From positions 1 through 44,443 of the forward strand of contig JAEEIA010000038.1 in assembly GCA_016281125.1 (NCBI GenBank): DNA of 44,443 nt. The letters run 5' to 3'. A model generated the notes under the pieces. It was not told where the DNA came from. It saw only the letters and a list, made by a program, of their open reading frames with translations, and searched no databases. Shown piece after piece: positions 6,813 to 42,995 of this stretch (position 1 is its first letter; each line of letters starts with the position of its first letter). The position numbers and the translations under genes were made by a program. The stretch comes from Oscillospiraceae bacterium. Its GTDB lineage: Bacteria > Bacillota > Clostridia > Oscillospirales > Ruminococcaceae.

Positions 6813-6841
6813 TTGATTTTTTTGCTGCTATATGGTATACT
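6813..6841 (+). promoter_or_regulatory. SigA-type promoter of sigma module A
   Basis: TTGATT (6813-6818), 17-base spacer, TATACT (6836-6841) with TGG before the -10. The core ATATGGTATACT is nearly the same as in the promoter of the second sigma gene (38709-38714). It implies a leader of roughly 80 bases before the annotated start. Confidence 0.75.
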
Positions 6842-6897
6842 GTACATAATTGCGGAGAATCCCGCAGATGAAAATCTATCAAAAATCAATCTGAGTT

Positions 6898-6926
6898 TGT
6901 AACCTTTTTCCGTGATTCCTGTTCTA
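6898..6926 (+). promoter_or_regulatory. Possible ECF-type self-regulated promoter
   Basis: TGTAAC (6898-6903), 17 bases, GTTCTA (6921-6926). The AAC-containing -35 is typical of ECF sigma promoters. A related arrangement, TGTAAT-17-TGTCTG, sits at the same place before the second sigma gene. If used, transcription would begin near 6932, and translation would have to start at GTG 6955 or later. The call is weak, from two sequences only. Confidence 0.3.
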
Positions 6927-6930
6927 ATGG

Positions 6931-7521
6931 ATGAGGGCACAAACGCGAAGGGCGGTGGCTGCCATTAACGATGATCGAATCATAGGCCTGTTTGAACAGC
7001 GGAGCGAGCAGGCGATTGCCGAAACTGCAAGTCAGTACGGCGCGCTGTGCCGGTCTGTTGCACGCAACATTCTGGGCTCAAATGAGGATGCCGAGGAGTG
7101 CTTCGACGATGCACTGCTGACCGTTTGGAACGCGATCCCCCCCGCACACCCGCAGAATTTCCGCGCCTATCTCCTTCGGCTGGTACATAACCATGCGGTC
7201 AACCGCTGGAATGCCGGCAAGGCGCAGAAGCGCGGCGGCAGTCATCTGCCGGCGGCGCTCGATGAGCTGTCCGAGGTGCTCGCCTCCCGCGAGGACATTG
7301 TGGACGAAAGCGAACGCCGTGAGCTGCTGGAGGCTGTGACGCGGTTCCTGCGCGGGCTCCCGAAGCACCAGAGAGATCTGTTCGTGCGGCGGTACTGGTA
7401 TGCCGCGACCGTTTCAGAGCTGTCTGCATTGTTCGATATGACAGAAAACCATGTAAAGGTAACACTTTCCCGCATCCGGAAACGGCTGCAAAATACTCTG
7501 CGGAAGGAGGGATTGCTGTGA
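6931..7521 (+). CDS. RNA polymerase ECF-type sigma factor (module A)
   Basis: This is a sigma-70 family member of the extracytoplasmic-function size class (196 residues from this start). Region 2 runs from about EQAIAETASQYGALCRSVARNILGS through EDAEECFDDALLTVWN (core binding and -10 recognition). Region 4 is near the C-terminus: LPKHQRDLFVRRYWY, then the helix-turn-helix TVSELSALFDMTENHVKVTL. The start is uncertain: ATG 6931 has no clear ribosome site, and GTG 6955 sits only 2 bases after GAAGGG. The family usually starts just before the D-D-[KR]-[IE]-I motif, which favours a later start. The stop overlaps the GTG of the next gene by 4 bases, so sigma factor and membrane partner are coupled, as usual for sigma/anti-sigma pairs. 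A paralogue lies at 38825-39382. Confidence 0.9.
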   Translation: MRAQTRRAVAAINDDRIIGLFEQRSEQAIAETASQYGALCRSVARNILGSNEDAEECFDDALLTVWNAIPPAHPQNFRAYLLRLVHNHAVNRWNAGKAQKRGGSHLPAALDELSEVLASREDIVDESERRELLEAVTRFLRGLPKHQRDLFVRRYWYAATVSELSALFDMTENHVKVTLSRIRKRLQNTLRKEGLL

Positions 7522-8540
7522 AGAACGATGCACTTCTGAAGCTGCTGGAAGATCTGCCGGATGATCTGATTGATTCCGCTGCCGATCCGCAGCCGCACCG
7601 CAGACCCGTTCTTTTGCGTTACGCGCTCCCTGCTGCCGCAGCCTGTCTGGTGATTGCGGTTTCCGCATTCATCTGGCCGAAGCTCCGCACGGAAAAGCCT
7701 GAGGTCACGGAGGAGTCCTCCTCCGTACAGGTTACGACCGTCCTGCCCGCCGAAACCGAAGCGGCAGACGGCACATCCGCACAGCAGGGAAACACCCTCA
7801 CAGAAACCACGGACCCGTATTATGTGCATATCGTCACAGAGCCGGTCTACCACTTCACAACCGCACCGCGTCCGGAGAAGACGGATCCCGATGCGACAGA
7901 GGATCCGGGCGGCGAGGAACAGGGCGATCCGGCGGGCACACCGGATACGCCGAACCAGCCGCAGCAGCCGAGCAACAACAGGACAACCACGGCACCGAAC
8001 GAGCGCGGCAACAGCCAGACGCCGTCCCGCACAACCGCCATTCCCGAACGGCCGCAGCAGCAGGGGCAGCAGACGCAGACTGAACCTGCTGCACCGACAA
8101 CGCAGCCGACACCCTCTCAGACAGATCAGGGCAGCGCAACGCCGCCGGGCAACAACGGACGCATCCCGTGCAGCATCACGCGGGTGATGATCGGTTCCGG
8201 GAACAGTCCGGTGGCAAGCGAAGACGAACCCATCTCGGGCGCTGCACCGAAGAGTGATAAGCAGGAAATTGCGAAGATGGAGGGCAATACGCTCGTGATC
8301 CGCATGGATACGAGATGCTCGGATGCCATGATATCCTACCTCGGACTGCGGAACGGCAGGCTCACGATTGAGATCCTGTATGACAACGCGGAGTACAGCA
8401 GAGAGCAGTTTGAATTCCGTGTCGAGCTGCCGCCGGACATCGCAGCCGGAATCTACGACATGAAAGCGGAATGCTTTGATGTGGACGATGTGGACGAATA
8501 CATTCACGACAGGGACAACATCACGCTTGTGATCCTGTAA
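7518..8540 (+). CDS. Single-pass membrane protein, putative anti-sigma factor with Pro/Thr/Gln stalk (module A)
   Basis: This is a 340-residue protein coupled to the sigma gene (GTG start overlapping TGA). A short cytoplasmic N-terminus (1-33) contains LLKLLEDLPDDLIDSAA. One transmembrane helix follows (about 34-53, LPAAAACLVIAVSAFIW). A long low-complexity outside stalk rich in P, T, Q, E and N runs to about residue 213. The C-terminal domain (about 215-340) is predicted beta-rich and contains ITRVMIGSG, LVIRMDTRCSDAMISYLGL and EFRVELPPDIAAGIYDM. No zinc-binding HxxxCxxC anti-sigma signature is seen. The N-terminal motif resembles that of the partner of the second sigma gene (LYDAMEGIPDQYIEAA). 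By position it is expected to hold the sigma factor until an outside signal arrives. This is inference, since the domain families are not recognised. Confidence 0.65.
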   Translation: MKNDALLKLLEDLPDDLIDSAADPQPHRRPVLLRYALPAAAACLVIAVSAFIWPKLRTEKPEVTEESSSVQVTTVLPAETEAADGTSAQQGNTLTETTDPYYVHIVTEPVYHFTTAPRPEKTDPDATEDPGGEEQGDPAGTPDTPNQPQQPSNNRTTTAPNERGNSQTPSRTTAIPERPQQQGQQTQTEPAAPTTQPTPSQTDQGSATPPGNNGRIPCSITRVMIGSGNSPVASEDEPISGAAPKSDKQEIAKMEGNTLVIRMDTRCSDAMISYLGLRNGRLTIEILYDNAEYSREQFEFRVELPPDIAAGIYDMKAECFDVDDVDEYIHDRDNITLVIL

Positions 8541-8564
8541 CGACTTGAAGGGAGGAATATCTCC

Positions 8565-11500
8565 ATGAAACAGCATCTCAGAAATCTGGCAGCAGCGACG
8601 GCATCGGCAGTGCTGCTCAATATGCCGGTCTATGCCGCCGTTACGGCGAAACCCTATCTTTCGCAGATCGGAAGCTGCAAGCGCATTGAAGGTCTGCACG
8701 AATACTATGAGAAACACAACCGGACACTGGGCGACGACACACAGTTCTATTATAACACCGAAAGCGGCAGAATGTACGTCATCTCCCCAGCGGGAAACGC
8801 CGGAATCGAGCTGACGCTGGACGGGCCGGATGATATGCGGTACGAACCGCTGAAAGGTCATATTGCCGCCCTCTGCGAGCAGTATTTCGGCAGCGGGTAT
8901 CAGATCACGGAGCAGATGCTCGAGGTCTGCATCGCAATCCGGGATGACGGAACGGTTCCGGATCTGATCGCCTCCCCGGTTCGCTATGAGATCCGGCTGC
9001 CGGAGCAGGGCGAGGGCGTTCAGGAGAAGGCTGAGGCACTGTACCGGACGCTTGTAGGAGAACAGTATCCTGTTACGGCATGCATGTATTATCCGGAGTT
9101 CGGCTATGTCGACGATGCCGTTCCGGGCGGATATTTTTACAATGCCGAGCAGGAGCAGGCAATCAGCGCGTACCTGAATGCGCATGAACCGGACTGGGTT
9201 CTGAAAACGGATCAAAGCCGTGAAAACATGGCAATCGTCCGCCAGACGGCTGCGACGCAGACGGAAAACAGCTCCGATCATGTGGGCGCCGTTTATGCAA
9301 AGGTGTTTGAGGCGCTCGGTTACTGGCCGGACGTCATGGCGATCACCGACGGATGCTCCCGCGCCTTCGGAATTGACCTGAAGCAGACCGTGCAGATCAC
9401 GGAACAAACATGCCCGTGGGAGTCCCCCTACGAAAAAGAAAGCAGCGGTGCGTCCGCTTACCCGAATGCAAAATTCTTCTTATCGAAGGACGCAGGGAAA
9501 ACAGGCACGCTCGAGTATTACACCTCCGGCAGCAGCATGCTCTCATTCCGCGCCTGGTCGGACTGCGTCGCATTCCATCTGAATGACACCAAGGCGATCT
9601 CCTACGATGAACTGCGGGCGCTTGCAAAGAAATACTCCGATTCCTATTCTGTTAAAATGCAGTCAGACTTCTGCATCATTTCATTCAGCGGCAGCAATAC
9701 ATTCAAGCCGGAATCCGCCGATGCGATCAAAAAAGAACTCTCCGATGCCGGCCTGATCCGGACATTCTACGGCCCGGGCGACGTTGCGTCGGTCGGATAC
9801 GACGATATTGAACCCGCAGAGGACGGTTCGCTGCTCTATTACACCGGCTACACGGAGCAGGAAGCGCAGCAGGTGGATGTCATGAAGGCATGGCTGGAGA
9901 AATACCGGACTGACTGCACGACGGAGGACTATATCACTCCGGCAGCCGCACAGGGCGGCAGAACTGAACCGCAGTATATCAAGGTCACGCCGAAAGCACA
10001 TCTGACGGCAGGTCAGAGGCTTGCACTTGCCTGCGACATTTACCGCGTCGCCGGTATATGGCCGCAGTGGATGATAATGCTTGTGCATGAACCGATCTAT
10101 GCCGTCCGGAACAACAGCTTCGTTCCCGCAGAACCCAAGGGGGAACCCTGCGAATGGATCGACACCGGCCTGAAAGGCTCCGAACAGGAAAAGCGCTGGA
10201 GCAGCTACACGAAATACGACTCCAAGGGAATGTTCGGCGGCGATACCTATATCTCCCCGGACGGCGGTCAGCTGGCCGTGTTTGACCCCATGCCCAACAC
10301 GATCGGATGCTTTGCCGTAAACAACAACGCGCTCACAAAGATCGAGGAAGCCGCAAAGCCCTATTCCGTCACTTCATACGGAAACAGGTTCATCCTGATC
10401 AGCAATTACAGCAGCACGGAGTTCTCGCAGGAGGATGTGCAGAATCTCCGCAGCACGCTGAAAAAGCAGGGACTCATCAGTGCATTCTATGCACCGGGCG
10501 AGGTTGCAGGCGTTTCCTTCCCGATGTTCAATACCGGCGATGCGCTGTACTACTTTAAGCCGACACAGAATCCGGATCAGTTCATGACTGCGCTGAAAGC
10601 ATGGCTTTCGGAGAACCGTCCCGGTTATACGGTCACCGAAGATGCGCCGCAGGATGTGATCCGAACCGATACGGATTATATCAAAGTCACGCCGAACAAG
10701 GATCTGACATCCGCAGAGCTGATCGCGCTTGCAGCAGAGCTCCGCGAAGCAGTCGGCGAAACGCCGCAGTTCCGGAATCTGGTCACGGGCGAGCCGGTCT
10801 TTGCAGTGCGCAATGACAGCCTGTTCTCCGCAGAGCCCGAATCCAAGGGGGAATCCTGCAAATGGATCGACACCGCTTTCCTCGGAAACGATTACCCCAA
10901 CAAATGGAGCAATTACACGAAATTCGATTCAAAGGGCTTCTACGGCAATGAAGTTTACATTTCGCCCGACGGCAGCCGGCTTCTCGCATTCGGCCCGCAG
11001 AACAATACCGTCGCATGCACTTCTGACCATGTCAACAGCCCGCTGAGCAGCGTGGCAATCCTAATCGGGAATCTCCTGCCGGATTATTCTGTCAGCACGG
11101 AGGATGATCGGCTCATTCTCATCAGCGATCTGTCCGGAAACGCGATCAGTCAGGAGAAGGCACAGCAGATCCGCAGCCGCCTGCTCGATGAAGGGCTGAT
11201 CTGGTCATTCTATCAGCCCGGCGAGGTGGCATCGGTAACGTTCATCTCGCATTACAAAGAGGGTGCGCTGTATTACTACAACTCGCCCGCGAAAAAGGGC
11301 GAGAGTCTGGAAAAAATCAAGGCATTCCTCGCGGCGAATCATCCCGACTGCTCTGCCGCAGTCACAGACGGTTCCGAAGTCGACAGAATGGATACGTCCT
11401 ATATCAAGGTCACGGCGGCAGAAGGCACCGGAGATGCCGGTCTGTTCGCACTGGCCGCAGAGATCTATGAAGCGACCGGGCTGAATCCGCTGATGAACGT

Positions 11501-11747
11501 CCCGATCCCGGTCAAACCGGACTATGCCGTGCGCTTTGACAGCCTTTCCGTCAAGGGTGACATGAACCTTGACAGTCAGACAGACGTTGCGGATGCCGTC
11601 ATGACGGCGCGGTACCTCGCGGAGGACAAGGAGGTCAAAATCATGGACAAGGGCATGGAAAATGCCGACGTTACCCATGACAGACAGGTCACAACGGACG
11701 ACCTCGCACTCCTGATCAAAGCGATTGCAAAGCAGACCACACTGTAA
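8565..11747 (+). CDS. Secreted multi-repeat protein of unknown function with C-terminal dockerin (module A)
   Basis: This is a 1060-residue exported protein. A signal peptide (about 1-25, ending VYAAV) is followed by a unique region to about 220, then tandem repeats of about 235 residues. The repeats are recognised by YIKVTP (about 471, 705) and YIKVTA (about 946). Each full unit then carries AVRN..S, KGE.C.WIDT, W..YTK.DSKG, YISPDG, RLILIS or RFILIS, GLI..FY.PGEVA and ALYY. A more diverged first unit spans about 235-465, and the last unit is truncated. Residues about 998-1060 form a type I-like dockerin with two Ca-binding segments (GDMNLDSQTDVADAV and ADVTHDRQVTTDDLA). The ribosome site is GAAGGGAGGA before ATG 8565, 24 bases after the anti-sigma-like gene. 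It should therefore be transcribed with the sigma operon and be tethered by a cohesin. I recognise no enzyme fold in the repeats. Confidence 0.75.
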   Translation: MKQHLRNLAAATASAVLLNMPVYAAVTAKPYLSQIGSCKRIEGLHEYYEKHNRTLGDDTQFYYNTESGRMYVISPAGNAGIELTLDGPDDMRYEPLKGHIAALCEQYFGSGYQITEQMLEVCIAIRDDGTVPDLIASPVRYEIRLPEQGEGVQEKAEALYRTLVGEQYPVTACMYYPEFGYVDDAVPGGYFYNAEQEQAISAYLNAHEPDWVLKTDQSRENMAIVRQTAATQTENSSDHVGAVYAKVFEALGYWPDVMAITDGCSRAFGIDLKQTVQITEQTCPWESPYEKESSGASAYPNAKFFLSKDAGKTGTLEYYTSGSSMLSFRAWSDCVAFHLNDTKAISYDELRALAKKYSDSYSVKMQSDFCIISFSGSNTFKPESADAIKKELSDAGLIRTFYGPGDVASVGYDDIEPAEDGSLLYYTGYTEQEAQQVDVMKAWLEKYRTDCTTEDYITPAAAQGGRTEPQYIKVTPKAHLTAGQRLALACDIYRVAGIWPQWMIMLVHEPIYAVRNNSFVPAEPKGEPCEWIDTGLKGSEQEKRWSSYTKYDSKGMFGGDTYISPDGGQLAVFDPMPNTIGCFAVNNNALTKIEEAAKPYSVTSYGNRFILISNYSSTEFSQEDVQNLRSTLKKQGLISAFYAPGEVAGVSFPMFNTGDALYYFKPTQNPDQFMTALKAWLSENRPGYTVTEDAPQDVIRTDTDYIKVTPNKDLTSAELIALAAELREAVGETPQFRNLVTGEPVFAVRNDSLFSAEPESKGESCKWIDTAFLGNDYPNKWSNYTKFDSKGFYGNEVYISPDGSRLLAFGPQNNTVACTSDHVNSPLSSVAILIGNLLPDYSVSTEDDRLILISDLSGNAISQEKAQQIRSRLLDEGLIWSFYQPGEVASVTFISHYKEGALYYYNSPAKKGESLEKIKAFLAANHPDCSAAVTDGSEVDRMDTSYIKVTAAEGTGDAGLFALAAEIYEATGLNPLMNVPIPVKPDYAVRFDSLSVKGDMNLDSQTDVADAVMTARYLAEDKEVKIMDKGMENADVTHDRQVTTDDLALLIKAIAKQTTL

Positions 11748-11769
11748 TAACATCAGCAGCTACAAGCTG

Positions 11770-11806
11770 AAGCAGCACCTCCGGGGACGGGGTGCTGCTT
11801 TTTTTT
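11770..11806 (+). terminator. Terminator of sigma module A
   Basis: Ten-base stem AAGCAGCACC (11770-11779) / GGTGCTGCTT (11791-11800), followed by a run of T to 11806. It lies 22 bases after the dockerin gene stop. Confidence 0.9.
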
Positions 11807-11870
11807 CGGGCAATGCCCGCCGGAATTGATCTGAGGCACTCCGGATACCGAAAGGATTTCTTTTCTCAAC

Positions 11871-11899
11871 TTGCTTTTTGCAGAATAATATGCTATAAT
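11871..11899 (+). promoter_or_regulatory. Promoter of alr and downstream genes
   Basis: TTGCTT (11871-11876), 17-base spacer, TATAAT (11894-11899) with TGC before the -10. It lies about 35 bases upstream of the alr start. Confidence 0.8.
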
Positions 11900-11936
11900 A
11901 ACAGTGTATGCATAATTGAAAGGAGCCTGATGCACT

Positions 11937-13136
11937 GTGCAGGGCATTCGCAAGCGGACATGGGCGGAAATCAACCTCGACCACGCCGCATGGAACTATC
12001 AGCAGATCCGGAAGGCCGTCGATCCTTCGGCAAAGGTCTGCTGTGTCATCAAGGCCAACGGCTACGGCCACAACGCCGTCCGTCTGGCAGCGCTTTATGA
12101 AACACTGGGCGCGGATTTTCTTGCTGTTTCCAATCTGGAGGAGGCGCTCCAGCTGCGGCAGGGACAGATCTCGCTGCCGATCCTGATTCTCGGCTATACG
12201 CCGCCGGAATGCGCCGGTGTGCTCGCCAAGCAGAACATCTCTCAATGTGTGTATTCCCGCAGCTACGGTGAGGCGCTCTCACAGGCAGCCATGTCGGACG
12301 GCGTGCGCGTCAAAATGCACATCAAAATTGACACCGGCATGGGCAGAATCGGCTTCCAGCACCGGAACGGACACTCCGAGCTCGCCGATGCGCTAGCGGT
12401 CTGCAAGCTGCCCTGCCTCAAACCGGAGGGCATCTTCACACATTTTGCCGTCGCGGATGACGGCGAAACCGGTGCGGCATTCACCCGTGAACAGTACGAA
12501 AACTTCATTGACGCAATCGACCGCCTCGGATGCTACGGCATCGGCTTTGCGCTCCGTCACTGCGCCAACAGCGCCGCAATCTTTGACAAACCGGTTGTGG
12601 AAGATCTGCCGGACGTTCACCTCGATATGGTGCGTGCAGGCATTGTGCTGTACGGCCTTGCGCCGTCCGGCCTGACGCGGAATCTTCCGGAGCTGAAACC
12701 GGTCATGGCGCTGAAAAGCGTCATCTCCCATATCAAGACGATTCAGCCGGGCGATACGGTCAGCTACGGCAGAACCTATACCGCGGATTCCCCGCGCACC
12801 GTCGCCACTGTCCCGATCGGCTATGCAGACGGCTTCTGGCGGCTGAACGGCTGCGGCAGCTGCAAAATGCTCGTCCGCGAGCAGCTCTGTCCGGTGATCG
12901 GCCGGGTCTGCATGGATCAGCTGATGCTGGATATCACCGACGCAAAGGGCATCTCGGTCGGGGATATTGTCACGGTATTCGGTGACGCCGCCGGGCTCTG
13001 CTCCGCAGATCAGATCGCGGAAAACACCGGCACCATCAATTACGAGGTCGTCTGCGCTGTCGGAGAACGCGTCCCGCGGTTCTTTTTGCAGGACGGCGTC
13101 CCCGTGGATGTTTCGGACAATATCTGGAAGCGCTGA
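11937..13136 (+). CDS. alr: Alanine racemase
   Basis: Alr interconverts L- and D-alanine with pyridoxal phosphate in the cytoplasm, supplying D-Ala for peptidoglycan. The N-terminal TIM barrel begins RTWAEINLDH and carries the PLP lysine in VIKANGYGHN (K39). KIDTGMGRIGF and HCANSAA follow. The C-terminal beta domain holds the second catalytic residue, a tyrosine in TVSYGRTY (about Y277), and DVVTVFGD-type sequence (DIVTVFGD). The 399-residue length is typical. The start is GTG at 11937. An ATG 7 bases upstream is out of frame, and AAAGGAG lies ahead. It heads a plus-strand run with a small membrane protein and ung. Confidence 0.95.
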   Translation: MQGIRKRTWAEINLDHAAWNYQQIRKAVDPSAKVCCVIKANGYGHNAVRLAALYETLGADFLAVSNLEEALQLRQGQISLPILILGYTPPECAGVLAKQNISQCVYSRSYGEALSQAAMSDGVRVKMHIKIDTGMGRIGFQHRNGHSELADALAVCKLPCLKPEGIFTHFAVADDGETGAAFTREQYENFIDAIDRLGCYGIGFALRHCANSAAIFDKPVVEDLPDVHLDMVRAGIVLYGLAPSGLTRNLPELKPVMALKSVISHIKTIQPGDTVSYGRTYTADSPRTVATVPIGYADGFWRLNGCGSCKMLVREQLCPVIGRVCMDQLMLDITDAKGISVGDIVTVFGDAAGLCSADQIAENTGTINYEVVCAVGERVPRFFLQDGVPVDVSDNIWKR

Positions 13137-13166
13137 ACACATGATACGAAAAAGGAGAACGCTGCT

Positions 13167-13646
13167 ATGTCCAATCAAAAAATCAGAAGTCTTGTTTACA
13201 CCGCGATTTTCATTGCACTGCTCGGCTCGGGACTGTGGTTCCTGCTGTTCCGCGCGGACGGTCTGACCGCGGATTCCGCCAAGGAATACTACGCGGAAAA
13301 TCAGGCGGCATTCAATGACATTGCATCCTACATGACGGAGAAGCATCTCATTGCGGATGTCACGGCTGTTCCGACCCCGGACGAGCATTTCGGGATTCAG
13401 TCTGAGGATTCCGACGCATACCGTTCTTTCTACGAAAACCTCATCAACCGGATGCGCGTCGCCTGCAAGCGGATCAATTCGACCGGCGATTCCGTGGAAT
13501 TCTATATGCCTGCAAAGGGCGGCCTGCTCTGCCAGCGCCATGCCGTGCTGATTTACGGCGACCCCGGGAACGGCATCGGAGATTCCGCACCGCTCCAGCT
13601 GAACAAGGACGGCTGGTACTACTGCCTCGTCAGCGGCAAGCCGTAA
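13167..13646 (+). CDS. Small membrane-anchored protein, function unknown
   Basis: This 159-residue protein has one N-terminal transmembrane helix (about 9-28, YTAIFIALLGSGLWFLLF) and a soluble, probably extracytoplasmic, C-terminal domain. It is lipobox-free, so probably an uncleaved anchor. Visible features are ADSAKEYYAENQAAFNDIASYM after the helix and GGLLCQRHAVLIYG and GWYYCLVSGKP near the end. The two cysteines could pair outside the cell. I do not recognise the family. AAAAAGGAG precedes the ATG at good spacing. The gene lies 30 bases after alr and 17 before ung, so it is probably cotranscribed with both. Confidence 0.75.
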   Translation: MSNQKIRSLVYTAIFIALLGSGLWFLLFRADGLTADSAKEYYAENQAAFNDIASYMTEKHLIADVTAVPTPDEHFGIQSEDSDAYRSFYENLINRMRVACKRINSTGDSVEFYMPAKGGLLCQRHAVLIYGDPGNGIGDSAPLQLNKDGWYYCLVSGKP

Positions 13647-13663
13647 GGCGGGAGGAACAGAGC

Positions 13664-14338: not shown

Positions 14339-14446
14339 ACGGTGCAGGAAAAATGATTTCGGCCGGACGCAGCGAAGATGACCACAGATCTGCAATTCCG
14401 GAAATCATGCAATCTATATAAGCGGGGCAGCCCGCATGAGGTGTAT

Positions 14447-15963: not shown

Positions 15964-16008
15964 ACAGAGAAAAACGCGCAAAAACATATCATACAAAGAG
16001 GTTATCAC

Positions 16009-16662: not shown

Positions 16663-16689
16663 TTCTGTATTCAGCCAACAGGAGTCAAC

Positions 16690-33146: not shown

Positions 33147-33270
33147 ACTTTATCACCGCACGCTGTACACAGCATATCCTTCGCCCTGCGGACAGCGCAC
33201 TCCGGCGCCCGTTTCCCGTTCCGTTCCGGCATAAAAAGCCCTCTCTTCTTTCTGTCTTGAATCATGATAA

Positions 33271-33291: not shown

Positions 33292-33298
33292 TCATCAT

Positions 33299-33327
33299 AT
33301 CATACCATAAAACGCCGGAATTGTCAA
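33299..33327 (-). promoter_or_regulatory. Promoter of the phosphatase-trkA-trkH-lipase operon
   Basis: Minus strand: TTGACA (33322-33327), 17-base spacer, TATGAT (33299-33304), with TGG before the -10. It is divergent from the ABC transporter promoter, with the -35 boxes 20 bases apart. Confidence 0.8.
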
Positions 33328-33347
33328 CGACGGCGCCGCACAGCGGC

Positions 33348-33376
33348 TTGACTTTCATACGGTGATATGGTATTAT
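33348..33376 (+). promoter_or_regulatory. Promoter of the amino-acid ABC transporter operon
   Basis: TTGACT (33348-33353), 17-base spacer, TATTAT (33371-33376), with TGG before the -10. The leader of about 38 bases before ATG 33421 excludes a large riboswitch. Confidence 0.8.
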
Positions 33377-33420
33377 AGTAGTATCTTGACTGGCATCTGC
33401 CGCGAAAGGAAGGATTGAGG

Positions 33421-34941: not shown

Positions 34942-34954
34942 GGAGGACAGGAAC

Positions 34955-35713: not shown

Positions 35714-35746
35714 CCGCGCGGAAATCCGCAGGAAAGGAGCCGTATC

Positions 35747-36538
35747 ATGCAGATTCTGGAGCTTGGATACCGTTCCGTGCTGATGCCGCATACGGCGTTC
35801 TCGTACCCGGACGGCGCGGACGGAACGCTGCTGCTGCTGACGGATGCGCCCATGCAGATCACGGCCGGGACGCAGCTTCTGCAAGCGGAATCCGGCGACG
35901 CCGCGGTTATCGCGGAGCATACGCCGCTTGTCTGCAAGGCCGCCGAGCAGCCGCTTTACTATGACTGGGTGCTGTTCCGGCAGGGCGGCGACCGCAGCTT
36001 CTATCAGTCCCTGCAAATCCCGGAAAACACGCTGCTGCGCTTCGGGGACACCGCATTTTTCTCTGTGCTGCTGGAACAGCTCTGTGCTGAGTTTTACGGG
36101 GCGAATGCCAAGCGCAGCGATATGCTGGAATATCTGCTCAAGGCGCTGCTGATCCGTATGGCGGAAACCGGCGGCCCTGTCGCTGAGCAGGCCGCCGCAG
36201 AGCATTCCGATCCACATTACGCGGAGCTGGTGCGGCTGCGGGAGAAAATTTATGCGAATCCGCAGGAGAAGTGGACGGTCGAGCTGCTCTGCTCGGAGGT
36301 CGGCATGAGCCGAAGCTATTTCCAGCTTGTGTACAGGGAAACCTTCGGCATGACCTGCATCGCGGACGTCATCAACTGCAAAATGAACCTCGCCCGCGAG
36401 CTGCTGACCTCGACAAGCTATACGATTGCGCATGTCGCGCAGCTCTGCGGATATGACAACGAGGAACATTTCATGCGGCAGTTCAAGAAGAACAACGGCG
36501 TCACCCCGACCGTCTACCGCCGCACCCACAGCGAATAA
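35747..36538 (+). CDS. AraC-family transcriptional regulator
   Basis: This 263-residue protein has an N-terminal cupin-like ligand domain (about 1-150) and a C-terminal pair of helix-turn-helices (about 165-260). The first is WTVELLCSEVGMSRSYFQLVYRETFGM. The second is YTIAHVAQLCGYDNEEHFMRQFKKNNGVTPTVYRR, a textbook AraC ending. AGGAAAGGAGCC precedes the ATG. It lies 33 bases after the ABC ATPase gene and before a terminator, so it is probably the third gene of that operon and may respond to the transported compound or to an unrelated sugar. Confidence 0.9.
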   Translation: MQILELGYRSVLMPHTAFSYPDGADGTLLLLTDAPMQITAGTQLLQAESGDAAVIAEHTPLVCKAAEQPLYYDWVLFRQGGDRSFYQSLQIPENTLLRFGDTAFFSVLLEQLCAEFYGANAKRSDMLEYLLKALLIRMAETGGPVAEQAAAEHSDPHYAELVRLREKIYANPQEKWTVELLCSEVGMSRSYFQLVYRETFGMTCIADVINCKMNLARELLTSTSYTIAHVAQLCGYDNEEHFMRQFKKNNGVTPTVYRRTHSE

Positions 36539-36586
36539 TGCCGGCAGGCCGGCAGCGATTCTTCACTATTCCGCAGCAAGAGCAAG

Positions 36587-36621
36587 GCGGGCGCAGACGT
36601 CACGGTCGGCGCCCGCTTTTT
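36587..36621 (+). terminator. Terminator of the ABC transporter-AraC operon
   Basis: Eight-base stem GCGGGCGC (36587-36594) / GCGCCCGC (36609-36616) with T5 after it. The loop-side text CACGGTCGGCG matches that in the minus-strand terminator at 28459-28497 (TACGGTCGGCG). Confidence 0.88.
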
Positions 36622-36671
36622 GCGAGAGCAAAAAAATACGTAAAATTCGACATTTTCCGTTTTTCGCTGCA

Positions 36672-36701
36672 TTGACAGACCGGTTCCGGATGTGATATAA
36701 T
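36672..36701 (+). promoter_or_regulatory. Promoter of the CotH-dockerin gene
   Basis: TTGACA (36672-36677), 18-base spacer, TATAAT (36696-36701), with TGA before the -10. The leader is about 35 bases. Confidence 0.85.
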
Positions 36702-36742
36702 GACCGCGAACCCGGAATCAAACAGAACGGAGGACAGTCTAT

Positions 36743-38596
36743 ATGCGTACACACATCACAGCGCGCGCAGCAGCCTGCGGCGCGGCTTTTATGCTGACCT
36801 TAACAGCGGCCGGTCAGCTTCCGGTATCCGCGGCGTCATCTGCGGTTTCTGCACCGGTATTCTCACAGGAAAGCTGCTTTTATGACGCTGCATTTGATCT
36901 GACGCTGACGGCACCGGATGACTGCAAAATCTATTATACGCTGGACGGCAGCGAGCCAACCGGAAATTCCCGGCTGTATGACGGCGCTATCTCTGTCTGT
37001 GACCGCACGCCGGAAGCTAATGTCATATCGGATCAGGCAAACCCGCACAATCCGCCGGACGCGCCCGTCGATAAGGCGACGATTGTCCGTGCGGCAGCGT
37101 ATGATGCATCGGGACGTTTCAGTGAAACCGTGACAAAGACCTATTTCATCGGCTGCGGCCAGAGAGATTACCTGACGGACATTCCGGTGGTTTCGCTGGT
37201 GACGGATCCGGATCACCTGTTCAATGAAGAAACCGGCATTTATGTTGACGGAAACTCCGGTGCGCGGCAGGAATTCAGGCTTCCGAATTATATGCAGAAG
37301 GGACGGGAATGGGAGCGCCCGGCACACTTCACGGTGTTTGAGAACGGAAAAGCCGTTTACAGTGCGAACACCGGCATCCGCATTCACGGGAATTCATCAT
37401 CCATGTCCGCACAAAAGAGCTTCAAGCTCTATTCAAGGAGCGAATACGGCACAAAGAAATTCGCATACGATTTCTTCGGCGGCACAGCCAGGGATGTGAA
37501 CGGCGAACGCATCTCGTCCTTCGATCACATGATTCTGCGGAACGGCGGCAATGACAGCACCCTGAAAATCCGCGACCGGCTGTGTCAGGAGATGGCGGCG
37601 GGGCGCAGCTTCGGTACGCAGGCAAAATCCGAATGCGTCGTATTCCTGGACGGCGAATTCTGGGGGCTTTACAACTTCACCGAAAAGCTGAACGAATCCT
37701 ATCTCGCCGCGCATTACCATGTCAAAAAGGATTCCGTCTGCCTCATCAAGGATCCGCTTGAATATATCGAGGGGGATGTCAAGGGGCTGGATGACTTCCG
37801 GGATCTGATTGCGCTTGCGGAGTCTGACCTGAGCGGCGCAGACGCCTATGACCGGGTTGCAGCCGTCATTGACATCAAGGGCTATGCGGAATATATGGCG
37901 ACGGAGCTGCTCATCGCCAACATTGACTTCAACAACAACAATTTTGCGCTGTGGAAAACAGATACCGCTGACAGCAGCAATCCGTATGCTGACGGGAAAT
38001 GGCGTTTTCTGCTGTACGACACCGAGGAAAGTCAGGGGCGCGGCCCCTATTGCGCGGCCGACACCGACATGTTTGCACGGATGCAGCAGTCCGAGGCATG
38101 GAATATCCGGCTCCTGTTCTCGCTGCTGGAAAGCAGCCCGAGATTCCGGACGGAATTTACAGAGGCGTTTTATTCGGTCTGTGATGAAAATTTCAATAGT
38201 GAACGCGTACTAAAACGCGCAGACGAACTGCTGCTGCGGTATCGGAAAGCGCTCGAAAAATCATATGACCGGTTTGCAGAGCACTATGCGGATTCGGAAA
38301 CGCCGACGGCCGAAAGCCAGCTGAATGAAGATTTTTCGTCGCTGCGGACATTCTGGGAAGACCGTGCGGATTATGCAAAATCGCATCTGGTCAATTATCT
38401 GCAAACGGTTGTCCGCCCCGGAGATGTGAACGGGGATGCACAGGTTGACGCCGCAGATGCAGTGCTGCTCCGGGATCTGCTGCTCGGAAGGCCGGATGCG
38501 GCACTTGCAGATCGGACTTCCGCCGATCTGAACGCCGACGGACGGCTCAGCGCCGCCGATCTGTCAGCGCTGAAGCAGCTGCTCCGGGCAGCATAA
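36743..38596 (+). CDS. Secreted CotH-kinase-family protein with C-terminal dockerin
   Basis: This 617-residue exported protein has a signal peptide (about 1-30, ending PVSAAS). A chitobiase/Fn3-like accessory domain (about 38-135) has IYYTLDGSEPTG. The CotH kinase-like domain (about 150-500) is recognised by IRIHGNSSS, MILRNGGND, KIRDRLCQEMA, FLDGEFWGLYNFTEKLN and WRFLLYDTEES, the last supplying the metal-binding aspartate region. A dockerin (about 558-617) has GDVNGDAQVDAADAVLL and ADLNADGRLSAADLSAL. CotH kinases of spore-formers phosphorylate secreted coat proteins, so here the target could be a surface protein held on the same scaffold. This is inference. GGAGG precedes ATG 36743. It is a single gene with its own promoter and terminator. 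Confidence 0.88.
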   Translation: MRTHITARAAACGAAFMLTLTAAGQLPVSAASSAVSAPVFSQESCFYDAAFDLTLTAPDDCKIYYTLDGSEPTGNSRLYDGAISVCDRTPEANVISDQANPHNPPDAPVDKATIVRAAAYDASGRFSETVTKTYFIGCGQRDYLTDIPVVSLVTDPDHLFNEETGIYVDGNSGARQEFRLPNYMQKGREWERPAHFTVFENGKAVYSANTGIRIHGNSSSMSAQKSFKLYSRSEYGTKKFAYDFFGGTARDVNGERISSFDHMILRNGGNDSTLKIRDRLCQEMAAGRSFGTQAKSECVVFLDGEFWGLYNFTEKLNESYLAAHYHVKKDSVCLIKDPLEYIEGDVKGLDDFRDLIALAESDLSGADAYDRVAAVIDIKGYAEYMATELLIANIDFNNNNFALWKTDTADSSNPYADGKWRFLLYDTEESQGRGPYCAADTDMFARMQQSEAWNIRLLFSLLESSPRFRTEFTEAFYSVCDENFNSERVLKRADELLLRYRKALEKSYDRFAEHYADSETPTAESQLNEDFSSLRTFWEDRADYAKSHLVNYLQTVVRPGDVNGDAQVDAADAVLLRDLLLGRPDAALADRTSADLNADGRLSAADLSALKQLLRAA

Positions 38597-38624
38597 GCCG
38601 CGCTGCGCAGAACGCTCATTTCAC

Positions 38625-38661
38625 GATCCGCTCTCCCTGTTCCGGGGAGGGCGGATTTTTC
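38625..38661 (+). terminator. Terminator of the CotH-dockerin gene
   Basis: Inverted repeat ATCCGCTCTCCC (38626-38637) / GGGAGGGCGGAT (38645-38656) with one mismatch, followed by T5. Confidence 0.85.
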
Positions 38662-38685
38662 AGGATGCCGTTTCAGCAGCCGCCG

Positions 38686-38714
38686 TTGCATTTTGCCGTA
38701 TCATATGGTATACT
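38686..38714 (+). promoter_or_regulatory. SigA-type promoter of sigma module B
   Basis: TTGCAT (38686-38691), 17-base spacer, TATACT (38709-38714), with TGG before the -10. The CATATGGTATACT core matches the promoter of sigma module A. Confidence 0.75.
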
Positions 38715-38748
38715 ATGGACAGCTCAAAAAAAATTTTTTTCGGAAAAG

Positions 38749-38777
38749 TGTAATATCACCGGTGCCGTTGGTGTCTG
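38749..38777 (+). promoter_or_regulatory. Possible ECF-type self-regulated promoter (module B)
   Basis: TGTAAT (38749-38754), 17 bases, TGTCTG (38772-38777), in the same position relative to the sigma gene as TGTAAC-17-GTTCTA in module A. The -10 parts match poorly, so this is tentative. Confidence 0.25.
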
Positions 38778-38824
38778 TCATTTTGAAGCCGCTTCAAAAC
38801 CGAACCGAAAGGATGATGATTACT

Positions 38825-39382
38825 GTGGATGATAAAGAACTGATCAGTCTGTACTTTGCCCGCGACGAAAAAGCAGTCACGGAAACACAGCGCATATTCG
38901 GCGGATACCTGTATACCATCGCGCACAATATTCTTGGAAGCGTACAGGATGCGGAAGAATGTGTCAATGATGTTCTGATGCGCCTCTGGAATCACATCCC
39001 GCCGGCCAAACCGGAGAACGTCTATGCATATTTCGCATCTGTCGCACGGTCCGTCGCAAGCAAGCGCTACAAAATGAAGCACGCGCAGAAGCGCGGCGGC
39101 GGGGAAACGGCACTCGTGCTTGACGAGCTGCATGACTGCTGCACCGATCCTGACACGGTGGAACAGCAGATTGACAGCCGCGCCCTGCGGGAAACGATTG
39201 CCGCGTTTATCGAAACATTAAAACCCGAGCAGCAGACCATTTTTATTCAGCGATACTGGTATGTCTGCCCGATTGAGGACATTGCGGAAGACCTCGGGAT
39301 CTCGAAATCAAAGGTTTCGGTGACCCTGATGCGCACACGCCAGAAGCTCCGGAAACATCTTGAACAGGAGGGATTCTTATGA
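38825..39382 (+). CDS. RNA polymerase ECF-type sigma factor (module B)
   Basis: This is a paralogue of the sigma factor at 6931-7521, 185 residues from this start. Region 2 contains RIFGGYLYTIAHNILGSVQDAEECVNDVLMRLWN. Region 4 has LKPEQQTIFIQRYWYVCPIEDIAEDLGISKSKVSVTLMRTR. The frame is open from 38693, but that stretch overlaps the promoter. GTG 38825 (protein starting VDDKELISLYF) is preferred for its distance from AAAGGA and fit to the family start. ATG 38813 or 38816 are possible. The stop overlaps the ATG of the large membrane partner by 4 bases (ATGA), as in module A. Confidence 0.88.
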   Translation: MDDKELISLYFARDEKAVTETQRIFGGYLYTIAHNILGSVQDAEECVNDVLMRLWNHIPPAKPENVYAYFASVARSVASKRYKMKHAQKRGGGETALVLDELHDCCTDPDTVEQQIDSRALRETIAAFIETLKPEQQTIFIQRYWYVCPIEDIAEDLGISKSKVSVTLMRTRQKLRKHLEQEGFL

Positions 39383-42300
39383 AGCCGATCGACCTTTACG
39401 ACGCCATGGAAGGCATCCCGGATCAGTACATCGAAGCGGCAAAGCCTGCCGTCAAGCGGAAGGGAGAGTCCCGTACAGTCACAACGCAGACAGTACGTGC
39501 AGCGGAGCAGGTACACAGCAGTCCGCACACGCAGAAGCGTCAGAACAGAAAGGACAGTATCCATATGAGTACCATTCAGCCGGTATGGCAGCGCATCACA
39601 ACAGGCCTTGTCGCTGCTGCCGCCTGCGCCGTATTTGTCGGCGGAGGCTGGTTTATCGTTCAGCAGGCAAAACAGAACCGTCAGCAGGAAAACGAAGAAA
39701 GCATGGCGAAATCAGCTCCGAATTTCCTCGGCGGTCTTGGCCGGATCCATGTTGCAAGCGACATGTATCTGATGTATGATAACGAAAAAGCATATTTCAG
39801 CCTGGCAAGCTATGAAGCAAAACGCAGCAGCAGCGAAGTCGGCAAGCTCACGGAGCGTGAACATGCCGCAGAATATCTCTGGGACGGCGAGCAGTTCTGC
39901 CATGCGGAGGACAATGCGCTTTACCGCATCGGCATGGACGGAAAGCATACGGAAAAAACGCCGTTCTATACAATCGACACCGATGAAATCCAGAAGCAGG
40001 TCAGCACAGACATCGTCAGCACCTATTTCCTTGAAACCAAAAAGCTCACGGACGGTTACTATTATGTCTGCTTCGCAATCGGAACCGCAACCGACAAAAC
40101 CGTCAACTGGGACAATCAGGTCTTTGCCTGCATCTATCAGCCGGAAAACGGTCAGCAGGACTTCATCCCGAACGGGCTCATTTCCCAGCCGCATCTCATC
40201 ACGGACGGCAATGATATCATCGTGTCTGAGGCCAACGGCGACCTTTACCGCGTCACACTGAATCCGGTGAACATTGAGGCACTCGGAAACGTGCAGCCGA
40301 CCGCCGCCTTTGAATCAAACTTTGCCCTCTCGGACGGCAGCCTGTACTATATGGCTTCCAAAGCAGAGGACGAGAGCGAAAAGCTCAGCTACGGCAAAAT
40401 CAACCTGAAAACACTCGAATATACGGATGTTCTGGAAACACCGGACTTCACGAACTTTGTTCCCTATAGCGGAGAAATCTACGCGCTCAGCTCTGACGGT
40501 TCAAAGCTGATCTGTGCAGATCCCGACATGAAGCATGTCAAAACGGTCTGCGACTTCAACGGCATGATGACGGAAAAGCAGCAGGCTGCGCTTGCCGAAG
40601 ATATGACACAGCATTCCTATCTGCCGGTGCTGCACGCCGTGGATGACAACTGGTTCATGATTGATCTTTCCTCGGTTGATTCAGCCAGAGGCAAGGCGCT
40701 GATCGACCGCAAGACCATGAAAATGCAGCTCTTCACGCAGAACAGCGCCGATGACATCCCCGAAACGGCCGCAAAGCCCAATATCTACGGCGGTACAGGC
40801 GCACTGCATACGGCTGGGAACATGTGGCTGGTCTATGATGACAGCAATGTGTACTTTGAGTACAGCGCCCTGCGCGGTGAGCGCAATCCTGCTTCTCAGA
40901 TCTCGGATACCGTGCTGTTCAGCAAAGGCAGGGACACGGCACTGATCTATGACGGCAAATACCTCTACACCCACGACGGATTCAACCTGTATCGTCTCGG
41001 AAGCGACGGAAACCCGGAAGCGGAACCGTTCTACACCGTCAGTGACGCAGATATTGCAGCATTCAAAGCAGAAACCGGCGGAAAAGCATATTTGCAGTTC
41101 TTCGGTGTTGACAGACTCACAGAACAGTATTACCATGTCTTCGCACAGCTCGTAGACGATCCGGTCGGACAGAACGTCAGCTACAACCAGACCTTCGCTT
41201 ATCTCTACAATGCGGAAACCGGAGCGTGCCGGGAAATCCCGGATTTCGGAGAGCAGCTGTTATCTTTCCGTTGCGTCAAAAGCGGAGATTACTTCTACTG
41301 CTGCCCGGTCGGCACGGAAAACCTCTGCCGCTTTGACCTTGAACACTACACCTATGAAACCATTGCGAAGCCGGATCCCTATATCATGTGGAACGACTGC
41401 ATTCTGGCAGACAACAACGCCCTGTACTATCTGTCGCCGGGACTGAACAGCAACGGCGAACAGGCCTTTTACGACTTCGCCAAGCCCTGCTACTGCAAAT
41501 ACGATCTGAGCACCGGTACCTCCGGCGTTCTGAGTGAAACACCGGATCTCGATTATTTCGTTCCGTTTGACGGCATGATCTATTTCGTCAGCCTGGACGG
41601 CACAAAGGTTTACTGCGCCGATCCGGAGCTGCAAAACAAAACCCTCCTGATCGACTACGAGCGGGACATTCCGGCAGAGCTCAAGGAAGCTGTTCTTGCC
41701 GCAGAAAAGAAATACAATACGACCGCGCCGATCTCGCGTGTGGACAGCGTCGATGAAAACTATCTCTGCACGCGCCTTGTGGACGGCACGGACATCCTGC
41801 TCAACCGAAAGACCAACCAGCTCCGCTTCTACCGGCGCACCGATTCGGAGAACACGGAACAGATCGCAGTCACTGCGCTGACCACAGCTGCGGAATCCGC
41901 AGCAGCAACGACCACGACCGCCGCCGTCACCGGCGACGAGGAAAACGTGTTCGGCGGCTGGGGAAGGCTGTATCCCGTTGACTGGGACAATCACGGCGCC
42001 GTCGCACTGTACCGTGACAGCAACAACTATTACTTCTTTGACGGAACAGAGGAGAAGTGGTACCGCTGCCCGCTTGCAGGCGGTGAAAAGGAACCGCTGC
42101 CCGCGCGCATCAACGGCGCACAGGCACCGCACAGGCCGTTCATCTCCGACGGCGAACGCGTTTACTCCAAGGACATGATCGTTTATTCCGACGGCAATGC
42201 GTCAAATTCGTTTGATACCGCACAGATCCGCGCATATCTGGACGAGCTGAATGACGATGCAACGGACAACGGCTATTACTACGAATGCCAGAATATCTGG

Positions 42301-42924
42301 CACATCCGCAACCATTACTTCCTGCATATCACCGGTACCAATCAGAAGGGCGACATCATCAGCATCGAGGTCTGGACAGACGAAACCGGCAGAATCATCT
42401 CCCATGAAAACGCACCGGCAAACATCTCGCTTTACTTCTGCAACGGCAAAAAAACGGAAATGCGTGCAATCAAAGACCAGTTTCTTGATGTCATAGACTG
42501 CCCCGGCGACGAGATCGACGGAAAGCCGGATCCGCTGGCATACGGCAAGATTATTGATATGTACAGTGACATGGAACATGAATACTATTTCACCGCAGAT
42601 CATGACCTGTATACCCTCGTTCAGGGAGAACCGGTGCTCGTGACCGACAGAGCATTCCAGAACCCGAAGATGGAAATCGCACCGGACGGCCGCTTCTTCT
42701 ATGTCAATCAGGATCCGCTGAACTTCTCGGTGCGCGAATGGATCGGCGGCTCACAGGACAATGAGCTCTATGCACCGGAGCTGTGCCAGGAGCTGCGGAT
42801 CTGCGGCTTTGAAGAAACCGGGAACGGCAGATACAACATCGTTCTTTCACGGACAGTCGACAATGACACCGGCTACGTCTTTGTGGACGCCGCAACGGGG
42901 CAGGCCGTAAAGAAGATACAGTAA
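39379..42924 (+). CDS. Very large single-pass membrane protein, putative anti-sigma partner with three outside repeats (module B)
   Basis: This 1181-residue protein is coupled to the sigma gene. The cytoplasmic N-terminus (1-72) contains LYDAMEGIPDQYIEAAKP, similar to the module A partner. One transmembrane helix follows (about 73-94, TTGLVAAAACAVFVGGGWFIV). The outside part has three large repeats, each opening with a similar line: NFLGGLGRIH (about 115), NIYGGTGALH (about 468) and NVFGGWGRLY (about 856). Within the repeats, short strand-turn units such as DNALYRIG, DGSLYYMAS, DGSKLICADP, DNNALYYLSPG and DGTKVYCADPE recur, consistent with beta-propeller or DUF5050-like blades. A Thr/Ala linker (about 835-850) separates repeat 3. 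No dockerin, zinc anti-sigma motif or catalytic motif is seen. By position it should restrain the sigma factor and sense something outside. That role is inferred. Confidence 0.65.
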   Translation: MKPIDLYDAMEGIPDQYIEAAKPAVKRKGESRTVTTQTVRAAEQVHSSPHTQKRQNRKDSIHMSTIQPVWQRITTGLVAAAACAVFVGGGWFIVQQAKQNRQQENEESMAKSAPNFLGGLGRIHVASDMYLMYDNEKAYFSLASYEAKRSSSEVGKLTEREHAAEYLWDGEQFCHAEDNALYRIGMDGKHTEKTPFYTIDTDEIQKQVSTDIVSTYFLETKKLTDGYYYVCFAIGTATDKTVNWDNQVFACIYQPENGQQDFIPNGLISQPHLITDGNDIIVSEANGDLYRVTLNPVNIEALGNVQPTAAFESNFALSDGSLYYMASKAEDESEKLSYGKINLKTLEYTDVLETPDFTNFVPYSGEIYALSSDGSKLICADPDMKHVKTVCDFNGMMTEKQQAALAEDMTQHSYLPVLHAVDDNWFMIDLSSVDSARGKALIDRKTMKMQLFTQNSADDIPETAAKPNIYGGTGALHTAGNMWLVYDDSNVYFEYSALRGERNPASQISDTVLFSKGRDTALIYDGKYLYTHDGFNLYRLGSDGNPEAEPFYTVSDADIAAFKAETGGKAYLQFFGVDRLTEQYYHVFAQLVDDPVGQNVSYNQTFAYLYNAETGACREIPDFGEQLLSFRCVKSGDYFYCCPVGTENLCRFDLEHYTYETIAKPDPYIMWNDCILADNNALYYLSPGLNSNGEQAFYDFAKPCYCKYDLSTGTSGVLSETPDLDYFVPFDGMIYFVSLDGTKVYCADPELQNKTLLIDYERDIPAELKEAVLAAEKKYNTTAPISRVDSVDENYLCTRLVDGTDILLNRKTNQLRFYRRTDSENTEQIAVTALTTAAESAAATTTTAAVTGDEENVFGGWGRLYPVDWDNHGAVALYRDSNNYYFFDGTEEKWYRCPLAGGEKEPLPARINGAQAPHRPFISDGERVYSKDMIVYSDGNASNSFDTAQIRAYLDELNDDATDNGYYYECQNIWHIRNHYFLHITGTNQKGDIISIEVWTDETGRIISHENAPANISLYFCNGKKTEMRAIKDQFLDVIDCPGDEIDGKPDPLAYGKIIDMYSDMEHEYYFTADHDLYTLVQGEPVLVTDRAFQNPKMEIAPDGRFFYVNQDPLNFSVREWIGGSQDNELYAPELCQELRICGFEETGNGRYNIVLSRTVDNDTGYVFVDAATGQAVKKIQ

Positions 42925-42967
42925 GGCCGGCAAATGAACAATCCTCCGAATACGATTCACACAAGCA

Positions 42968-42995
42968 CACCGCCTGACAGAAATATCAGGCGGTG
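42968..42995 (+). terminator. Probable terminator of sigma module B
   Basis: Ten-base perfect stem CACCGCCTGA (42968-42977) / TCAGGCGGTG (42986-42995), followed by the moderately T-rich TCACTTTGTTC. It lies 44 bases after the stop. The T-run is weak. Confidence 0.65.

Follow-up and report, generated by a model that had tools for sequence, protein, structure and literature searches.

ECF sigma factor modules with diverse membrane partners in a dockerin-rich Oscillospiraceae bacterium: a putative array of transmembrane switches

We analysed a contig of 44,443 nucleotides (hereafter the window) from an Oscillospiraceae bacterium (assembly GCA_016281125.1, contig JAEEIA010000038.1), which carries two modules on its forward strand, each consisting of a gene for an extracytoplasmic function (ECF) sigma factor and an overlapping gene for a single-pass membrane protein. 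We found that both belong to a family of 30 modules in this genome, with a recurrent promoter motif, a short partner N-terminus that covaries with the sigma factor, and widely differing outside domains. We consider it likely that these modules form an array of one-signal transmembrane switches, in which the membrane partner acts as an anti-sigma factor, the ECF sigma factor activates its own genes and dockerin proteins are among its targets.

Two modules in the window

Module 1 spans positions 6813-11801 and comprises the sigma gene, the overlapping gene of the membrane partner, a dockerin protein gene and a terminator-like hairpin. It opens with a predicted housekeeping-type promoter, TTGATT-17-TATACT with TG (6813-6841), which includes an exact copy of TATGGTATACT at 6831-6841, followed by a predicted ECF-type promoter of the kind found throughout the family (6898-6926), with the -35 element TGTAACC at 6898-6904, a 16-nt spacer and the -10 element GTTCTA at 6921-6926. 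The sigma factor gene, encoding P0001, was placed at 6931-7521, its start being uncertain; because position 6931 lies only about 5 nt past the ECF-type -10 element, a start at the GTG at 6955 or later is likelier if that promoter is used. The partner, P0002 (7518-8540, 340 aa), is a membrane protein with a single predicted helix and a putative anti-sigma factor. Its putative sigma-binding motif occupies residues 1-22 (7518-7583), where two short helices were predicted with low confidence, and is followed by a predicted transmembrane helix at residues 35-53 (7620-7676), a Pro/Thr/Gln stalk and a C-terminal extracellular beta domain within residues ~211-340 (8148-8537). The end domain was recognized by a leave-one-out hidden Markov model (HMM) at E=3e-8, and its strands were modelled at a pLDDT of ~70; the mean pLDDT of the whole P0002 model was 45.5, too weak for a fold search, which was therefore not made with this protein. 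The gene for P0003, a secreted repeat protein (8565-11747), begins 24 nt after the partner gene and is likely the third gene of the operon. Its C-terminal dockerin domain (residues 997-1054; 11553-11726) scored above the Pfam cut-off, and a search for a domain common to P0002 and P0003 found none. The module ends with a hairpin resembling an intrinsic terminator (11769-11801).

Module 2 spans positions 38704-42996 and consists of an ECF sigma gene, an overlapping gene for a single-pass membrane partner and a terminator-like hairpin. The exact copy of TATGGTATACT, here a housekeeping-type extended -10 element, lies at 38704-38714, and the predicted ECF-type promoter at 38749-38777 (-35 TGTAATA at 38749-38755, 16-nt spacer, -10 TGTCTG at 38772-38777). 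The sigma factor P0004 is encoded at 38813-39382 and its partner P0005 (1181 aa), a single-pass membrane protein and putative anti-sigma factor, at 39379-42924. Motif and covariation delimit a putative sigma-binding segment at residues 1-22 of P0005 (39379-39444), and hydropathy predicted a transmembrane helix at residues 76-94 (39604-39660). Outside the membrane lie three repeats that appear propeller-like in the model and by Foldseek, at residues ~113-455 (39715-40743), ~467-821 (40777-41841) and ~855-1181 (41941-42921). The repeats, of ~326-388 residues each, open with NFLGG, NIYGG and NVFGG at about residues 115, 468 and 856. The terminator-like hairpin (42967-42996) has a weak T tail. Upstream, a gene for a CotH-kinase protein with Fn3_assoc and dockerin domains (36743-38596) ends about 110 nt before the housekeeping-type -10 element of module 2.

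Both sigma proteins scored above the cut-offs of Pfam Sigma70_r2 (PF04542), Pfam Sigma70_r4_2 (PF08281) and TIGR02937. P0001 (196 aa) and P0004 (189 aa) are 35% identical over 186 residues and end at region 4 with no extension; a search of the PDB with P0001 retrieved one sigma factor (E=2e-4). With regions 2 and 4 in about 190 residues, both are ECF (group 4) sigma factors.

A family with conserved gene coupling, promoter and partner N-terminus

We identified 30 family sigma genes in the window's genome at E<=8.6e-36 to P0004. A distant sigma gene, C79:27237 (29% identity, E=1.4e-12 to P0004), was excluded from these 30 and included in the 31-region promoter set, the genus copy counts and the set of 111 partners used below. 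For all 30 sigma genes, the next gene encodes a protein with one membrane helix predicted by hydropathy, which begins at residue 31-109 (median ~58). The two genes overlap by 4 nt in 29 of the 30 modules (28 placed by script, and C50:91786 via an in-frame ATG), both window modules included, and C50:102509 is the sole module without this overlap. The arrangement that the preliminary description had noticed in the window, an ECF sigma gene joined by a 4-base overlap to a gene for a single-pass partner, is more than chance because 30 paralogues in the genome share it. The same tabulation of the gene after each sigma gene, which that description had proposed as a check, gave a partner with a membrane segment at 80 of 80 named relatives and the exact 4-nt overlap at 69 of them; these were the best 80 of 572 confirmed loci, near-identical loci included.

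We then found the family in each of 30 genomes of the genus, with 2-35 matches per genome and 495 in total (sigma matches at E<=1e-20, the distant kind resembling C79:27237 included). Of 197 genomes sampled across the taxonomic family, 82 had matches at E<=1e-40, with up to 17 candidates scored per genome; three of these 82 came from the genus itself, and 78 had 1-6 matches. Among the 80 named loci, three carry the label Lachnospiraceae and one Christensenella. The proposed family of surface-sensing switches thus gains from the 30 copies, the spread through the genus and the varied outside domains, but its suggested confinement to ruminococci does not hold.

The preliminary description had also pointed to a promoter core common to the two modules. 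TATGGTATACT is indeed exact at 6831 and 38704 and fits an extended -10 element of the housekeeping sigma factor. However, it occurs 15 times in the genome, compared with four times for its reversed control, and only two of these 15 copies stand at modules; as a module signature it was dropped. Closer to the genes (6898-6926 and 38749-38777) lies a second, ECF-type element, TGTAACC, 15-16 nt and (C/T)GTC(T/A), which was found 20-70 nt before the matched sigma start in 28 of 31 upstream regions, with poor matches in several members (for example C60:51640, C52 and C68). Unseeded Gibbs sampling for motifs settled on A/T tracts, and we replaced it by seeded expectation maximization (EM) with an out-of-sample test. 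The seeded EM, which ran for 25 rounds on the 31 regions, reached a log-odds of 260.5, against 140.7-186.2 in 15 shuffled sets and 177.8 in a control stretch 150-300 nt upstream, the controls having run for 12-15 rounds. With the motif left unchanged, a score of at least 7 was reached by 43 of the 80 upstream regions of the named loci; among control stretches, one in a set of 73 and one in a set of 69 did so, as did 0.8% of shuffles. An AAC-type -35 element is typical of ECF sigma factors, according to the available text of PMC6056542, and AAC is present in the -35 part of the predicted motif TGTAACC-N16-(C/T)GTC. Since promoters of this type stand upstream of the family's sigma genes, the modules probably activate themselves. 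One further ECF-type site (L263, G000:C79:23510-23539, + strand) is divergent from the sigma gene C79:22783 and stands 135 nt before an open reading frame (ORF) of 455 aa or more whose start is signal-like.

The N-termini of P0002 and P0005, MKNDALLKLLEDLPDDLIDSAA and MKPIDLYDAMEGIPDQYIEAAK, are related, as had been noted before. Across the family, partner residues 1-22 follow a consensus of about M-K-x-x-D-L-h-x-A-h-G-x-I-D-E-x-Y-I-x-E-A, with helices predicted at ~3-11 and 15-21 (pLDDT <60). In the genome's own modules, distances between sigma factors correlated with distances between partner N-termini (Mantel r=0.385, p=2e-4); the membrane segment gave 0.14 (p=0.01) and similarity of the ectodomains 0.20 (p=4e-4), both lower. 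To the 30 own and 80 named pairs we added 29 from 47 loci of further relatives, and 136 of the resulting 139 pairs entered a covariation analysis, three being dropped for poor motif anchoring. The strongest sigma-partner signals, with sigma positions in P0001 numbering, where Pfam region 4 begins at 134, were 141-17 (0.29), 137-14 (0.19) and 148-20 (0.17), compared with a largest value of 0.14 in 40 permutations; their spacing is plausible as a helical register. The membrane segment, a control with the same ancestry as the N-terminus, stayed below its null (0.146 vs 0.161, 107 pairs). Moreover, in 58 non-redundant pairs (sigma factors <60% identical), Glu20 of the partner occurred in 28 of 44 pairs with Arg148 in the sigma factor and in 0 of 14 without it, and an acidic residue 15 occurred in 29 of 29 pairs with Lys/Arg83 in region 2 and in 16 of 29 without it; both window modules are consistent with these two residue rules. 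From these patterns, the second helix of the motif is likely to contact the beginning of sigma region 4 and may reach region 2 too. The covariation also speaks against one outcome that the preliminary description had named as refuting, a lack of physical interaction between the N-terminal motif and the sigma factor.

No Pfam or NCBIfam model with an anti-sigma name matched the N-termini of the window's partners or of the scanned family partners. The lone anti-sigma match, between P0005 and NF052375 'antisigma' (15.6 bits where the cut-off is 100, E=0.012), covers residues 58-106, which is the membrane region, and PHROGs gave no match for P0002, P0003 or P0005. The partners also differ from those with a class I anti-sigma domain (ASDI, ~100 cytosolic residues), as their segment before the membrane is short and belongs to no Pfam anti-sigma family. 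Class II anti-sigma factors, CnrY among them, have short segments of two helices (PMC7406223, available text). Since covariation with the sigma factor is seen in residues 1 to ~22 and not in the membrane helix, the likeliest role of the partner is that of an anti-sigma factor whose binding segment is very short and lacks annotation.

Outside domains and dockerin proteins

The two window ectodomains formed no BLASTP pair at E<1e-3, in keeping with the claim that they differ outside the membrane. The stalk and small beta domain of P0002, the separate dockerin protein P0003 and the three repeats of P0005 were likewise recovered, by the model and searches described above. The sensors had further been called unfamiliar, and this stands only in part, as the module 2 repeats are propeller-like and the module 1 end domain is common to relatives. 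In the P0005 model, three repeats are built of beta-strands, and pLDDT is 70-90 for most residues. Its best Foldseek matches were the multi-propeller receptors LRP2 (E=8e-18) and LRP6; two Bacteroides sensors, BT4673 and BT4663, matched through their outer domains lower in the ranking. TM-scores, taken over the whole model, were low (0.11-0.19), which is to be expected when several domains are hinged, and a profile search of the PDB with P0005 gave no match. The end domain of P0002 was recovered in 7 of 8 leave-one-out tests among module 1 relatives, the test with L127 having failed.

Among the ectodomains of the genome's modules, 9 of 435 pairs were related (BLASTP, E<1e-3). The ectodomains of C79:22783 and C1:71105, whose sigma factors are 61% identical, gave no BLASTP match even at E 10. 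In the tandem C60 modules (L068:1542-7971), the sigma factors are 96% and the ectodomains 42% identical, so that ectodomain change in these duplicates appears to be very fast. We detected PASTA domains in three partners (L066, L084 and L086), which suggests wall-fragment cues, and in one partner (L079:4529-6025, C25) a serpin fused to a membrane helix and an anti-sigma-like N-terminus, for which a protease cue is an obvious idea. Ectodomain homologues of the serpin type were found at L139 and L168, two loci labelled Lachnospiraceae. One partner ectodomain carries a dockerin just below the Pfam cut-off. Using an HMM built from 13 of the genome's own cohesins, we found cohesin-like repeats in two partners (C76:127890 and C1:57858) and one relative (3 of 111; E 3e-14 to 6e-8, the next match at 0.28), and phmmer found no match for a partner cohesin in the PDB.

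All 30 genomes of the genus encode dockerins, from 60 to at least 149 each. The window's genome has at least 149, together with 16 cohesins above the cut-off, four of them in one 1412-aa frame; among the 30 genomes, the cohesin count covers this one. The host therefore has the many dockerins and the cohesin-bearing proteins of a cellulosome producer. Across the 30 genomes, module number rose with the number of first-look dockerin candidates (rho 0.89, or 0.71 once genome size is taken into account). In a survey of the genes downstream of 111 modules, of which 100 had more than 400 nt beyond the partner and 72 had an ORF of 120 aa or more with its start inside the first 300 nt, the next ORF on the same strand carried a dockerin in 14, seven of them in the window's genome. 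We sorted by eye, on sigma similarity and motif and without a tree, a module-1-type group of 11 members (C56:6961, C79:22783, C68, C1:71105, C4, L120, L121, L125, L127, L132 and L146), and a secreted dockerin gene follows the operon in 9 of the 11, C4 and L127 lacking it. In 3 of the 111 modules (L082, L088 and L121), the partner ectodomain has a homologue in the secreted dockerin protein whose gene comes directly after it (C1:71105, E=9e-13; C68, E=1e-5; L121, E=3e-23).

We also searched the genome with a strict form of the promoter, TGTRACC-N15/16-BGTCT. Of its eight matches, three precede family sigma genes, three stand about 100 nt before genes for secreted dockerin proteins (C59:86116, C80:53606 and C80:56593) and two lie elsewhere. 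Pfam recognized a dockerin in all ten proteins checked, which were seven of the 14 following genes' products and the three candidate targets, eight above the cut-off and two just below.

A putative switch array and its alternatives

The family, its gene coupling, promoter motif, covariation, several ectodomain types and following dockerin genes are computed features of these genomes; from here we infer inhibition, proteolysis, cues, most targets and any wider control of the cellulosome. In the proposed switch, the first ~22-30 residues of the partner, as two short helices, would clamp the ECF sigma factor at the start of region 4, and perhaps at region 2, keeping it at the membrane and off RNA polymerase, and in some modules the housekeeping-type promoter would provide a basal supply. 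The ectodomain would meet a cue outside the cell which, depending on the ectodomain, might be a plant polysaccharide, a cellulosome component, a protease or cell-wall material, and the clamp would then let go, probably through regulated intramembrane proteolysis. Once free, the sigma factor would transcribe its own operon from the TGTAACC-N16-(C/T)GTC(T/A) promoter, as well as secreted dockerin proteins, P0003 within the operon in module 1 and separately placed genes elsewhere. Repeated duplication of sigma and clamp, with exchange or rapid change of the ectodomain, could have produced the ~30 parallel sensors.

Several results weigh against this reading. The covariation signal depends on the set of pairs: with the window's genome removed, 141-17 and 137-14 remained above the null and 148-20 was lost; with stricter weighting, 141-17 and 148-20 remained and 137-14 was lost; and the 30 own-genome pairs alone gave nothing above the null. 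Phylogeny was handled there solely by weighting and the membrane-segment control, and the Fisher tests on 148-20 and 83-15 concerned pairs chosen after the covariation scan. Similarly, the correlation between copy number and dockerins ignores phylogeny, and its dockerin counts are lower bounds at the top. The strict promoter pattern was not enriched (8 matches vs 8 in the reversed control), a broader one gave 19 vs 16, and a tighter one, at 3 vs 0, was framed after the hits were seen; position is consequently the basis of the target calls, and a pair of tandem paralogues makes up two of the three dockerin targets. In the window's genome, a dockerin ORF within 300 nt follows 7 of 30 modules and is missing after the other 23. 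The cohesin-like partners stayed below the cut-off of the Pfam cohesin model (E 0.067 and 2.4 genome-wide, none at E<=0.05), and the serpin and PASTA ectodomains imply cues other than polysaccharide. Finally, as the assembly is 95.5% complete with 3.9% contamination, a copy or two of the modules could be foreign or missing.

A more far-reaching version, which we put forward tentatively and hold to be rather doubtful, is that the ECF sensor array replaces SigI/RsgI in ruminococcal cellulosomes and in part monitors the cellulosome as such. Those anti-sigma factors that bear a dockerin or repeats of cohesin type would gauge unassembled dockerin enzymes or free scaffoldin sites and adjust the transcription of cellulosome parts. 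A secreted dockerin product might also compete with its own sensor for the cue, as 3 of 111 partners share a domain with it.

We judged it unlikely that the modules are ordinary envelope-stress pairs of the SigV/SigW type, numerous by chance, whose link to the cellulosome would be incidental to a dockerin-rich genome. The low copy numbers across the taxonomic family, the PASTA and serpin partners and the 23 own modules lacking an adjacent dockerin gene would all suit such pairs. However, copy number rises with dockerin candidates after genome size (partial 0.71), partners with cohesin-like repeats and with a dockerin exist, a dockerin gene follows most module-1-type operons, and the strict promoter precedes three dockerin genes.

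It is improbable that the partner instead activates or scaffolds in a dual role like that of FecR, with the sigma factor working only in its presence. Covariation and coupling suggest an interaction and not its sign, and the overlapping, presumably co-transcribed genes fit this idea equally. Dual-role regulators of the FecR type pair with a TonB-dependent outer-membrane receptor in diderms; no such receptor is expected here, and none was searched for. In addition, the two-helix segment before a single membrane helix resembles class II anti-sigma factors as presented in the available part of PMC7406223. We regard as very improbable a contingency-type surface variation, in which the modules would serve mainly as a reservoir of adhesins or antigens with regulation secondary. 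The ectodomains do diversify much faster than the sigma factors, as the 9 related pairs in 435 and the C60 tandem indicate, but the promoter motif, 4-nt coupling and N-terminal motif recur family-wide, and selection for surface variety alone would not need them. A true SigI/RsgI system divergent in sequence is hardly conceivable and was ruled out: the logic is the same and the multiplicity similar to or greater than the sets of 8 to 16 SigI factors in related species, but the sigma factors match Sigma70_r4_2 above its cut-off where SigI carries SigI-C in place of region 4 (both points on SigI from the available text of PMC6056542), and RsgI_N (PF12791) was found in 0 of 30 genus genomes, with the B. 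subtilis control recovered, and in none of the scanned partners.

With a canonical region 4 where SigI carries SigI-C, and lacking RsgI_N, the family is best read as an ECF-based counterpart of SigI/RsgI, analogous to it and not a member. The likeness in logic that the preliminary description had proposed is borne out by the number of copies and their very varied ectodomains. As in Clostridium/Acetivibrio thermocellum and its relatives and in Pseudobacteroides cellulosolvens, many paralogous pairs of a sigma factor and an anti-sigma factor, the latter putative here, occur in a cellulosome producer, with a single-pass partner whose variable ectodomain follows one membrane helix; an autoregulated promoter and dockerin genes among the targets, both only predicted here, would extend the parallel. 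The modules differ in their very short putative N-terminal clamp, in copy numbers of up to 35, in ectodomains that include propellers, cohesin-like repeats, dockerin, PASTA and serpin, and in a TGTAACC promoter of ECF type where SigI has an A-tract promoter.

SigV/RsiV and SigP/RsiP pair an ECF sigma factor with a single-pass anti-sigma factor in Firmicutes, much as proposed here, but the partners here match no Pfam anti-sigma family. By description, not by sequence, the partners also resemble CnrY of the class II pair CnrY/CnrH, in that a short cytosolic segment, predicted here to form two helices, precedes one membrane helix, and covariation suggests contacts to regions 4 and 2, the two domains that CnrY contacts. 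In CnrY, however, helix 1 lies on region 4 and helix 2 on region 2 (PMC7406223, in its available part), whereas here the strongest region 4 covariation falls on helix 2, in a host of Gram-positive type and in front of large sensory ectodomains. ECF262 (Ruminococcus albus SFB89493.1), also an ECF sigma factor from a Ruminococcus, is tabulated among ECF sigma factors without an anti-sigma factor in the available table of PMC8999054; set beside that table row, the modules here differ in their adjacent partner, and the window's sigma factors end at region 4. A literature search over titles and abstract openings, with few subscription journals covered, found no paper describing arrays of ECF and anti-sigma factors in ruminococcal producers of cellulosomes.

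A 2024 survey assigns a dedicated suite of RsgI receptors only to cellulosome bacteria of the Acetivibrio type, and its available text names no regulator for ruminococcal cellulosomes (PMC11557425). Control of the cellulosome in these ruminococcal bacteria is little known, and the family provides a concrete, testable candidate regulator: it occurs in the right genus, its copy number follows dockerin content, dockerin genes adjoin some of its modules, and some of its sensors carry cohesin-like repeats or a dockerin. Beyond this, its putative anti-sigma segment is very short and has predicted contact residues, and nature has joined ~30 differing outside domains to a single signalling frame.

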